From Ectothiorhodospiraceae bacterium (GTDB lineage Bacteria > Pseudomonadota > Gammaproteobacteria > Nitrococcales > Halorhodospiraceae): a DNA stretch of 41,526 nucleotides. How positions within the stretch are numbered: position 1 is the stretch's first letter; the number at the start of each line of letters is the position of its first letter. The stretch spans positions 1 to 41,526 of the forward strand of contig PULM01000091.1 of NCBI GenBank assembly GCA_003552345.1. Direction: 5' to 3'. Of the stretch, positions 22,784 through 26,892 are shown one piece after another. The notes beneath the pieces were generated by a model, which saw only the letters and a list, made by a program, of their open reading frames with translations, did no database searches and was not told the origin of the DNA. Both the position numbers and the translations under genes were made by a program.

Positions 22784-24097
22784 ATGGCATCATCCGGTAT
22801 CCCTGCCGACGAGGCGCACCGCCTGGAGGTCCTGGCGCGGTATCAGTTAGAAGAGAACGCCCCCGAGGAGGCCTTTGACCGTCTCGTTGACCTCTGCGCG
22901 CGGATCTTTGATGTGCCCATCGCCTTCATCTCCCTGGTCGAGCATCAGCGGCAGTGGTTCCAGGCGGCTCGTGGGTTCGAGCTGGCCGAGACCCCGCGGG
23001 AGATCGCCTTCTGTAACTATGTGATCTGCCGTGGTGATCCGCTGGTGGTCTCCGACACCCGGCAGGACGCCCGCTTCGCCGATCACCCGCTGGTCAATGG
23101 TCCGCCGCATCTGCGTTTCTATGCCGGGGTGCCGTTGGTGATCGAGGATGGGGTGCGGATCGGCACCCTCTGCCTTGGTGACCGGCAACCGCGGACGCTA
23201 CCGGATGGCGGACTGCAGACCCTGCAGGAGCTGGCGGCCATGGTGGTCGATGAATTCGAGCTGCGGCGGGCCAACCAGCGCCTGGAGGAGGAGCGGGTGC
23301 GCGCCGAGCGGGCCGCCACCGAGTTGCGTCGCGCCAACCTCGAGCTGCAACAGGCCCGCGAGGAGGCCGAGCGTGGCAATCGGGCCAAGAGCCAGTTCCT
23401 CTCGAGTATGAGCCACGAACTGCGTACGCCGCTGAATGCCGTGCTCGGTTTCGCCCAGATGCTCGAGCAGGACCCGCACGAGCCGCTTTCCGAGCGCCAG
23501 CTCGGCTACGTCGAACAGATCCTCGGTGGGGGGCGGCACTTGTTGTCGCTGATCGACGATATCCTCGATCTCGCCCGGGTCGAGGCCGGTCGGGTGGTGT
23601 TGCAGCCGGAGTGGGTGGCCCCGCGCACCCTGATCGATCAGTGTATCGAGCTGCTCGGGCCCATGGTCGCCGATACCGGGGTGCAGCTGTCCGCGCACAC
23701 GCTCGGGGATGCCCCGGCGTCGATCCATGCCGACCCGCAGCGCATCCGCCAGGTCCTCTTCAACCTGCTCAGCAATGCCGTGAAGTACAACCGGCCTGGT
23801 GGGCGGGTGGATCTCGAGCTCGCCTCGCCGGCCCCCGGTCGGGTCACGTTCCGGGTGCGGGATACCGGGCCCGGCATCCCCATCGAGCGCCAGCGTGAGG
23901 TCTTCCACCCGTTCAATCGCCTCGGCCTGGAGTCCTCGCAGGTGGAGGGGACCGGTATCGGCCTGGTGGTGACCCGGCGCCTGGTCGAGCAGATGGGCGG
24001 CGAGATCGGCTTCAGCAGCGAGCCCGGGGTCGGTTCGCTGTTCTGGGTGGAGCTGCCCTGTCAGCCGGCCCATGTCGAGGAGGCAGGCGGTGAATAG
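22784..24097 (+). CDS. GAF-domain sensor histidine kinase
   Basis: GAF region (RIFDVPIAFISLVEHQRQWFQAARGFEL...ICRGDPLVVSDTRQDARFADHPLVNGPPHLRFYAGVPL), H-box [58 protein letters not shown]. No receiver domain. Confidence 0.92.
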   Translation: MASSGIPADEAHRLEVLARYQLEENAPEEAFDRLVDLCARIFDVPIAFISLVEHQRQWFQAARGFELAETPREIAFCNYVICRGDPLVVSDTRQDARFADHPLVNGPPHLRFYAGVPLVIEDGVRIGTLCLGDRQPRTLPDGGLQTLQELAAMVVDEFELRRANQRLEEERVRAERAATELRRANLELQQAREEAERGNRAKSQFLSSMSHELRTPLNAVLGFAQMLEQDPHEPLSERQLGYVEQILGGGRHLLSLIDDILDLARVEAGRVVLQPEWVAPRTLIDQCIELLGPMVADTGVQLSAHTLGDAPASIHADPQRIRQVLFNLLSNAVKYNRPGGRVDLELASPAPGRVTFRVRDTGPGIPIERQREVFHPFNRLGLESSQVEGTGIGLVVTRRLVEQMGGEIGFSSEPGVGSLFWVELPCQPAHVEEAGGE

Positions 24098-25253
24098 GCC
24101 CTGTTACGAGGGGGGTGGGCTGGTCAACCTGATGGCCTCGCTGGCCCGCGCCTTCGGCGCCGGGTCGAGCCATTATCCCGCCCTTGACCCGGATCCTGGG
24201 CTGGGGCTCGAGGACGCGCGCACGGTGATCCTCTGGGTCATCGATGGCCTGGGCGACCACTACCTGGCCAGGCAGCCGGGCAGCACCTTGGCCGGGCATC
24301 GAGTGCGGGGGCTGACCTCGGTCTTTCCGGCCACCACCTCAGCGGCGTTGACCAGCATCATCACCGGGCGCCCGCCGCGCGGCCACGGCGTGACGGGGTG
24401 GTTCATGTACGTTCACGAGCTGGGTGCCGTGACCGCCTGGTTGCCGTTCGGTCCGCGGGTGGGCAAGGGGCAGTGGTCCGGCATCGAGCCGGAGAGTGCC
24501 GAATTGCTTCAGCGCGATGCGATCTGGGACCGGTTCCGGGCCGAGACCCACGTGGTCCAGCCGGCCTGGCTGGTCGATACGCCCTACAGCCGTGCCGTCA
24601 CCGGGCGGCAGGCGCGGCGCCACGGCTACCAGGGGCTGGATGAGCTGCGCGAGGTCCTGGTGAGGATCGCCCGTGAGCCGGGTCGCCAGCGCCGCTTCGT
24701 CTACGCCTACTGGCCGGACCTGGATACGCTGAGTCACCAGCACGGCGTCGACAGCGCGCCGGTGCTCGACCAGTTCCGCTCCATCGACATCGCCTGGCAG
24801 CGGCTGCTCGACGGCCTGCAGGGGACCGACACCGTGGTGCTCGGGACCGCCGATCATGGTCTGATCGACACCGCCCCCGAGCGGCCCCTCTACCTGGAGG
24901 ATCACCCGGAACTGGCCGAGATGCTGGCATTGCCGCTTTGTGGCGAGCCGCGGGCCGCTTACTGCTACTTGCGTCCTGGTACCGAGACCGACTTCCAGCT
25001 CTATTGCCGCGAGCGCCTGGCCAGCGTCTGCCAGGCGGTCCGGGCCGAGGAGGTGATCGCCGCCGGCTGGTTCGGCCCCATGCCGGAGCATCCGCAGCTG
25101 CGCCGGCGCATCGGCGACTGGGTGCTGCTGCCGGCGGACGGCTGGGTGCTTAAGGATCGACTGGTGGGCGAGGGTCGTTTCGCGCAGGTCGGGGTGCATG
25201 GCGGTGCCTCGGCCAGTGAGCAGTGGGTGCCGCTGATTGCCGCACGGCCGTGA
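24090..25253 (+). CDS. alkaline phosphatase superfamily / type I phosphodiesterase-nucleotide pyrophosphatase-like protein
   Basis: VILWVIDGLGDHYL, FPATTSAALTSIITGRPPRGHGVTGW, YAYWPDLDTLSHQHG, VLGTADHGLID. GTG at 24090 overlaps the HK stop; an alternative ATG lies at 24072. Confidence 0.87.
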   Translation: MNRPCYEGGGLVNLMASLARAFGAGSSHYPALDPDPGLGLEDARTVILWVIDGLGDHYLARQPGSTLAGHRVRGLTSVFPATTSAALTSIITGRPPRGHGVTGWFMYVHELGAVTAWLPFGPRVGKGQWSGIEPESAELLQRDAIWDRFRAETHVVQPAWLVDTPYSRAVTGRQARRHGYQGLDELREVLVRIAREPGRQRRFVYAYWPDLDTLSHQHGVDSAPVLDQFRSIDIAWQRLLDGLQGTDTVVLGTADHGLIDTAPERPLYLEDHPELAEMLALPLCGEPRAAYCYLRPGTETDFQLYCRERLASVCQAVRAEEVIAAGWFGPMPEHPQLRRRIGDWVLLPADGWVLKDRLVGEGRFAQVGVHGGASASEQWVPLIAARP

Positions 25254-25266
25254 TAGCATCGTCAGG

Positions 25267-26259
25267 ATGGAATCCCTGCTCTACACCGCCGAAGCACCCT
25301 TCGAGGCCGCGCGTCGCGATGGCCGTGGCTGGCACGGGCATTCCTTCCGCCTGCGCGTGCGGGCGGCGCCCGATGGGGGGGCCGCCGATCCGGATGCGCT
25401 GGCCGCGGCGTGCGCCCGGGCGGTGGCCCCCCTCGACTACACGCTGCTCAATGACGGGGTGGAGGATCCCACCGACGCCCGACTGCTTGAGGAGCTGGGC
25501 CAGCGCCTGCGCGCCGCTGGCGTAACCCCGCGGCGGTTGGCGTTGCGCAGCGCCCCGGATCGCGGGGTCGGCCGCGGCGAGGTGGCGTGGAGCTGGCGAT
25601 CGTTCCGCTTCGAGGCAGCCCATCGCCTGCCCTACGTCCCCGAAGGACATCCGTGTGGCCGCATGCACGGGCACGGGTACCTGGTGGTGCTGGAGGCCGT
25701 CGATACCGATGCCGAGGCGCTGGGGACGGCCTGGGCGCCGCTGGGCGAGGCGCTCGACCGGGCCTGCCTGAACGACTTCCTCGACAACCCGACCAGTGAG
25801 CTCATCGCCGTCTGGCTGTGGGAGCAGCTCCGTCCCCGCTGTCCCGGGCTCATCCGAGTGCATGTCCATGAGACGGAGCACTCCGGCTGCACCTACGACG
25901 GCGAGCGGCACACCATCTGGAAGGCCCAGCGCTTCGAGGCCGCGCCCCGGCTGGCCGCTGCTGCTGACCGGCGCGGGCGACTGCACGGCCACGGCTATCG
26001 GCTGCGCGTTCACGTCACCGCGCCGCTGGATCGGGTCCTCGGCTGGACCCTGGACTACGGGGACGTCAAGGCCGCCTTTGCCCCGGTGCGCGAGGCCCTG
26101 GATCACCAGCGTCTGGATGCCATCGACGGGCTCGAGTCGGGCGATGTGGCCGATCTCGCCGCCTGGGCGGCCCGCGCCGCACACCGCCGCCTGCCGGAGC
26201 TTCTGCGCATCGACTGTTACGAGCGCGACGGCGTCGGTGCCATCGCCTGGCCGGTCTGA
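25267..26259 (+). CDS. tandem three-repeat 6-pyruvoyl-tetrahydropterin synthase / 6-carboxy-tetrahydropterin synthase (QueD)-like fusion protein
   Basis: Three T-fold-like repeats: FEAARRDGRGWHGHSFRLRVRA / FEAAHRLPYVPEGHPCGRMHGHGYLVVLEA / FEAAPRLAAAADRRGRLHGHGYRLRVHV. Each is followed by an LDY/LDR/LDH segment. Confidence 0.88.
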   Translation: MESLLYTAEAPFEAARRDGRGWHGHSFRLRVRAAPDGGAADPDALAAACARAVAPLDYTLLNDGVEDPTDARLLEELGQRLRAAGVTPRRLALRSAPDRGVGRGEVAWSWRSFRFEAAHRLPYVPEGHPCGRMHGHGYLVVLEAVDTDAEALGTAWAPLGEALDRACLNDFLDNPTSELIAVWLWEQLRPRCPGLIRVHVHETEHSGCTYDGERHTIWKAQRFEAAPRLAAAADRRGRLHGHGYRLRVHVTAPLDRVLGWTLDYGDVKAAFAPVREALDHQRLDAIDGLESGDVADLAAWAARAAHRRLPELLRIDCYERDGVGAIAWPV

Positions 26260-26262
26260 GTC

Positions 26263-26892
26263 ATGGGCTACGCCGTCCACAGCCTGTTCTACACCCTGCA
26301 GGGCGAGGGGGCGCGCAGCGGCCGGCCTGCCGTATTCCTGCGCTTTGCCGGCTGCAACCTCTGGAGCGGTCGTGAGGCCGATCGGGCGACGGCGGTGTGC
26401 CAGTTCTGTGACACCGACTTCGTTGGCACCGGCGGCCCCGGTGGCGGGCGGTTTGCCGAGCCCGGGCAGCTGGCGGCGGCGGTGGCGGCTCAGTGGCCGG
26501 GTGGCGGTGTGCCCTACGTGGTGTGTACCGGCGGGGAGCCGGCGCTGCAGCTGGATGCGGCGCTGCTCGAGGCCCTGCATGCCCAGGGGTTTGAGGTGGC
26601 GGTGGAGAGCAACGGCACCCTGCCCCTGCCCGCCGGGCTGGACTGGGTGTGCGTCAGTCCCAAGGCGGGGACCGAGCTGGTGGTCGTTGCCGGCGATGAG
26701 CTCAAGCTGATCTATCCCCAACCGGGGGCCGAGCCGGAGCGCTATGGCCACCTGGCCTTCCGCCACTTCTATCTCCAGCCCTTGGACGACGCCCAGCGCG
26801 ATGCGCACACCCGTGCGGCGCTGGACTACTGCCGCGCGCATCCGCAGTGGTGGCTCAGCGTGCAGATTCACAAGGACCTGGGTATCCCCTAG
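26263..26892 (+). CDS. queE: 7-carboxy-7-deazaguanine synthase (radical SAM)
   Basis: SLFYTLQGEGARSGRPAVFLRFAGCNLWSGREADRATAVCQFCDTDFVG (CX14CX2C), CTGGEPALQLD, VCVSPKAG, LKLIYPQ, FYLQPLDD. Confidence 0.93.
   Translation: MGYAVHSLFYTLQGEGARSGRPAVFLRFAGCNLWSGREADRATAVCQFCDTDFVGTGGPGGGRFAEPGQLAAAVAAQWPGGGVPYVVCTGGEPALQLDAALLEALHAQGFEVAVESNGTLPLPAGLDWVCVSPKAGTELVVVAGDELKLIYPQPGAEPERYGHLAFRHFYLQPLDDAQRDAHTRAALDYCRAHPQWWLSVQIHKDLGIP

Follow-up and report, generated by a model that had tools for sequence, protein, structure and literature searches.

A trimodular QueD with its catalytic residues divided between two of three fused T-fold repeats

The trimodular queD gene and its neighbors

The analyzed window, a 41,526-nucleotide stretch of contig PULM01000091.1 from an Ectothiorhodospiraceae bacterium (assembly GCA_003552345.1), contains a trimodular QueD gene at positions 25267 to 26259 on the forward (+) strand, as are all of the other window features given below. 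The gene is a single open frame, running from an ATG at 25267 to a TGA that ends at 26259, and encodes 330 amino acids plus the stop. In the translation, the Pfam PTPS domain PF01242 matched in three stretches, with an E value of 1.2e-43 for the whole protein, and the NCBIfam QueD equivalog model TIGR03367 scored 101.5 bits, over its cut-off of 89.25; since the TIGR03367 match is spread over three stretches, this score is a sum. Family models call the trimodular protein a plain QueD from such summed domain scores, so that its architecture is hidden.

A queE gene of the Cx14CxxC type (26263 to 26892; TIGR04508, 333.9 bits, cut-off 240) starts 3 bases past the stop of queD. On the other side, 13 bases upstream and in the same orientation, lies a gene resembling type I phosphodiesterase/nucleotide pyrophosphatase genes (24072 to 25253; PF01663, 92 bits). 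With 25253 as the last position of the PF01663 gene and 26263 as the first of queE, the spacing makes these two genes and the queD between them look like a single operon.

Three T-folds and a divided set of catalytic residues

An AlphaFold2 model of the single chain, run with a 23-row alignment, contained three consecutive beta-beta-alpha-alpha-beta-beta units (mean pLDDT, 88; pTM, 0.86), with strands (E) and helices (H) at E4-18, E21-33, H42-56, H70-83, E88-96, and E99-103 in repeat 1; at E107-119, E134-144, H149-163, H177-188, E195-203, and E206-210 in repeat 2; and at E214-224, E243-253, H264-278, H294-306, E312-320, and E323-327 in repeat 3. The initial annotation had described three tandem PTPS/QueD repeats in one chain, and this description was borne out both by the three PF01242 stretches and by the model, in which repeats 1 and 3 are predicted T-folds, as is repeat 2. 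The best solved matches found by Foldseek were the QueD proteins of Escherichia coli and Pseudomonas aeruginosa (44 to 49% identity over one module). QueD/PTPS-I enzymes have one T-fold per chain and the present chain has three, a departure that bears on architecture and not on the chemistry that defines the enzyme. The motifs quoted in the initial annotation, namely, FEAARRDGRGWHGH, FEAAHRL..GHPCGRMHGH, FEAAPRL...RLHGH, LDY, LDR, and LDH, were all present.

Residues were mapped by alignment to E. coli QueD, with the E. coli numbers counted along its sequence. Repeat 1 (amino acids 1 to 105; positions 25267 to 25581), identified from the model and from conservation, is a degenerate T-fold in which HGH is the only member of the catalytic residue set present; an Arg occupies the place of the first Zn-His, the Cys is absent, LDY stands instead of LDH, and D70 is invariant. 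Repeat 2 (amino acids 107 to 213; 25585 to 25905), identified from the model and from its similarity to QueD, is the repeat most like the QueD proteins of E. coli and P. aeruginosa and carries the metal/Cys/Glu half-site. This half-site comprises the predicted Zn ligand H119 (25621 to 25623; E. coli H16); the predicted catalytic Cys130 in a CxxxHGH motif (25654 to 25656; E. coli C27); the HGH triplet with the predicted Zn ligands H134 and H136 (25666 to 25674; E. coli H31 and H33); the pterin-binding motif PTSE at residues 175 to 178 (25789 to 25800; the E. coli PTSE ends at E86); and Glu202 of HET (25870 to 25872; E. coli E110). Repeat 3 (amino acids 214 to 330; 25906 to 26256), identified from the model and from conservation, is a T-fold carrying the DY..VK and Asp-His half-site. 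It keeps GW..DYGDVK, with D263, Y264, and K268 (DYGDVK, residues 263 to 268; 26053 to 26070), which repeat 2 has lost, together with Asp279-His280 (26101 to 26106; E. coli D70-H71), and it has no conserved form of PTSE or of the HET Glu. The Cys-Asp-His triad and the Glu are all present in the protein, yet they are split, with C130 and E202 in repeat 2 and D279-H280 in repeat 3.

Conservation among homologues

The conservation alignment held 46 trimodular proteins, two of which lack the repeat 3 region, leaving 44 rows to be counted there. H119, C130, H134, and H136 of repeat 2 were conserved in 46 of 46 homologues; T176, S177, E178, and E202 of the same repeat in 45 of 45; and D263, K268, D279, and H280 of repeat 3 in 44 of 44. 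The first Zn-His was missing from repeats 1 and 3 in every row covering it. CxxxHGH is the defining motif of PTPS-I/QueD (PMC5041015), and the signature made up of this motif and a third, upstream Zn-His was found in repeat 2 of all 46 proteins. At the old Asp position of repeat 2, the 46 homologues had H (23), D (22), or Q (1), and at the old His position they had H (24), R (6), Y (5), L (5), G (3), Q (2), or C (1), so that the former Asp-His position of this repeat is variable, not uniformly absent.

The pattern is not due to chance, as retention and loss fall on identical residues throughout the 46 homologues. Each catalytic residue is thus fully constrained in a single copy, and the redundant copies are free of this constraint. 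The initial annotation had placed the full Zn-His set and the Cys in repeat 2 only and the Asp-His half-site in repeat 3, and had read this complementary loss as making one active site in each chain; the residue assignments held, and the division is conserved among the homologues.

Repeat 1 was the least conserved, with a mean majority fraction of 0.62, versus 0.74 and 0.71 for the other two repeats. It nonetheless keeps HGH, D70, and G100 (each 46/46), and S95 is near-invariant. HGH is invariant in repeat 1 (25333 to 25341) and nearly so in repeat 3 (25984 to 25992) despite the loss of the third Zn ligand and the Cys, a retention that the half-site scheme proposed below leaves unexplained.

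Distribution and origin

A scan with six short peptides against genomes of about 85,000 species returned 28 loci, more than 20 of them trimodular, mostly in Chromatiaceae (purple sulfur bacteria) and Ectothiorhodospiraceae; near relatives of the window genome also carry the gene. A profile search of evenly sampled Gammaproteobacteria found the three-module form in 16 of 276 genomes, representing 15 genera. Second trimodular copies were seen as well, one split over two frames in Thiorhodococcus minor (L023:793-1811) and another, at locus L022, cut at a contig end. An artefactual fusion in a single draft assembly was ruled out by the intact single open frame in dozens of genomes.

In a tree built from the sequences of 67 modules (121 columns, a short alignment that limits inner support), all of the repeat 1 sequences formed one group and all of the repeat 3 sequences another, each with 100/100 support. 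Repeat 2 had shorter branches and was not cleanly separated from the single-domain QueDs. The grouping of repeats 1 and 3 suggests that there was probably a single old triplication before the family spread, after which repeat 2 remained similar to QueD. Separate fusions, lineage by lineage, were rejected, since the repeats sort by position in the tree.

The trimodular protein as the probable QueD of the organism

PF01242 was sought in 20 genomes with a trimodular gene, comprising 15 near-complete genomes of the class-level sample and five Chromatiaceae reached via the scan loci. In all 15 near-complete genomes, every PF01242 match fell inside the trimodular frame, which leaves them without a further COG0720 protein; additional PTPS proteins, besides the trimodular one, were found in the five Chromatiaceae. 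Within the genus of the window, G002, G005 (the closest complete relative), G006, and G008 had no PTPS besides the trimodular gene, and in the window's own draft genome, which is 83% complete, this gene was the sole PTPS match. An extra PTPS of 143 amino acids was found in G040, from the same order, and G003, a 94% complete genome of the window's genus, had no PTPS-family match. A second canonical queD, which the initial annotation had raised as an objection should the fused protein prove inactive, was not found in the window draft or in the 15 near-complete genomes of the class-level sample, and this reading was rejected.

The other queuosine genes were present. QueC and Tgt scored over their cut-offs in 19 of 19 trimodular genomes tested, and QueF was found in 18 of the 19, missing only from the incomplete window genome. 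QueE matched in all 19 and was of the TIGR04508 type, over cut-off, in 14, of which 13 have queE adjoining the trimodular gene (the exception is G245); queC adjoins it in several genomes. Among the homologous loci, too, most have queE and the trimodular gene side by side. In G069, G071, G216, G228, and G239, QueE fell under the TIGR04508 cut-off and its gene lies near queC, away from the trimodular queD. Both the linkage to queE and queC and the presence of the queuosine pathway that mark a QueD were found here. Since the queuosine genes are present and no further candidate exists for the step that precedes QueE, the trimodular protein is most likely the working QueD, as we infer from gene content.

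A proposed composite active site

QueD would act as 6-carboxy-5,6,7,8-tetrahydropterin synthase in the second step of queuosine precursor synthesis. In rat PTPS, the Zn ligands, the Cys, and the Glu that anchors the pterin reportedly come from subunit A and the Asp-His from subunit B, with the active site near the trimer-trimer interface. The division of residues in the fusion follows these A and B roles exactly. For PTPS, the title of Burgisser et al. 1995, a paper to which PMC2229834 and PMC7546909 refer, names an inter-subunit catalytic triad and a Zn site.

We consider it quite likely that the organism's QueD is a fused T-fold pseudo-trimer in which repeats 2 and 3 together make up a composite site, one for each chain. 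An old triplication would have given a single-chain pseudo-trimer, which after fusion would have retained only one of the canonical inter-subunit sites, so that each chain should have a single active site. Repeat 2 would have become a permanent "A" subunit, with the Zn, the Cys, PTSE, and the Glu, and repeat 3 a permanent "B" subunit, with DY..VK and the Asp-His; repeat 1 would close the ring and perhaps line the pocket. The division of roles is well supported, and so is the presence in each chain of the residues for one working site; from these we infer that the residues of repeats 2 and 3 meet in one pocket and that the protein is probably catalytically active.

The repeats 2 and 3 that make up the pocket might just as well belong to two different chains as to a single one. 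With the division of roles unchanged, repeat 3 would complete repeat 2 of the other chain in a head-to-head pseudo-hexamer, an arrangement that we regard as quite possible, if somewhat short of an even chance, and that is a sub-case of the composite-site explanation rather than an exclusive alternative. The reported location of the rat PTPS site, near the trimer-trimer interface, favors it, as does the reversed module order of the bimodular PTPS-like proteins described below, which means that chain order does not dictate the pairing. PTPS, moreover, consists of two trimers packed head to head, and three adjacent monomers contribute to each of its sites (PMC7546909), so that the missing half may come from another chain. 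Against this, the related bimodular QueF has its site inside a single chain (PMC5372742).

The invariant HGH, D70, and G100 and the near-invariant S95 of repeat 1 might alternatively mark a second, noncatalytic pocket, which would bind a pterin or, through two His residues, a metal and would serve to regulate the enzyme or to channel its substrate. We think this unlikely; if true, the fused trimer would be an allosteric one-site QueD and not a reduced three-site one. It is more doubtful still that repeat 2 alone is catalytic, using other residues, and that the repeat 3 Asp-His serves folding or substrate entry only: the old Asp position of repeat 2 is D in 22 and the old His position H in 24 of 46 homologues, as this would allow, but the remaining homologues have R, L, Y, G, Q, or C at the His position, and the repeat 3 Asp-His is kept in 44 of 44, alongside D263 and K268. 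We give least credence to the reading that the protein is a pseudo-enzyme or works in a different pathway (folate or biopterin), with QueD activity supplied elsewhere, because, even though COG0720 has several functional subfamilies (PMC5041015) and some Chromatiaceae have additional PTPS proteins, the trimodular gene is the sole COG0720 gene in 15 near-complete genomes with the remaining queuosine genes, its repeat 2 has the PTPS-I/QueD motif CxxxHGH, and queE is adjacent.

The protein amounts to a natural experiment: the subunits of an obligate homo-oligomer, which shared their active sites, were joined in a single chain, and the half-sites were then fixed in different copies. It permits a direct test of residue roles subunit by subunit in PTPS/QueD, as symmetry no longer puts each mutation in all of the sites.

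Comparison with known systems

In its architecture, the trimodular protein is a genuine and new variant of an enzyme already known; in the open-licence literature, no published description of a three-module QueD was found. It shares its fold with canonical QueD/PTPS-I (E. coli, PDB 4ntm; P. aeruginosa, PDB 2oba), together with the motifs CxxxHGH, PTSE, V.ET, DF..K, and LDH, and its genomic partners are alike. Canonical QueD, however, has one T-fold per chain and forms a homo-hexamer with six equal sites, whereas the trimodular form has three T-folds and one complete residue set. Urate oxidase and GTP cyclohydrolase IB, which also have tandem T-folds, were weak structural matches (about 270 to 350 columns, 6 to 10% identity); they differ in having two T-folds, other chemistry, and no PTPS motifs.

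The closest published analogue found was bimodular QueF (Vibrio cholerae and E. coli), likewise a tandem-fused T-fold enzyme of queuosine synthesis with split catalytic elements. In that enzyme, the elements are divided between two T-fold modules and joined in an inter-domain site (PMC5372742). Bimodular QueF differs in its reaction, in its family (PF14489), and in having two modules; the QueF domain PF14489 had no match in the trimodular protein, the relatives of which have separate queF genes.

A further fusion of PF01242 modules with complementary half-sites was found in bimodular PTPS-like proteins of about 280 amino acids from other Gammaproteobacteria (L080 to L083 and L102 to L106; for example, L080:1968-2801), a form present in 5 of 140 genomes of the class. 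In nine sequences, the N-terminal half has an invariant DF..K and DH, and the C-terminal half has HGL..H.G.CQR..HGHR, TVE, and EG, with H..C..HGH, TVE, and E invariant. At L080, L082, and L083, the neighbors are motA/motB-like and hemN-like genes (named by eye), not queE. Unlike the trimodular QueD, this family has two modules in the reverse order, with the Asp-His module first, and both ring neighbors of a module are the same module. Alongside bimodular QueF and these bimodular PTPS-like proteins, the trimodular QueD points to a route taken repeatedly within a single fold, in which half-sites made redundant by fusion are lost.
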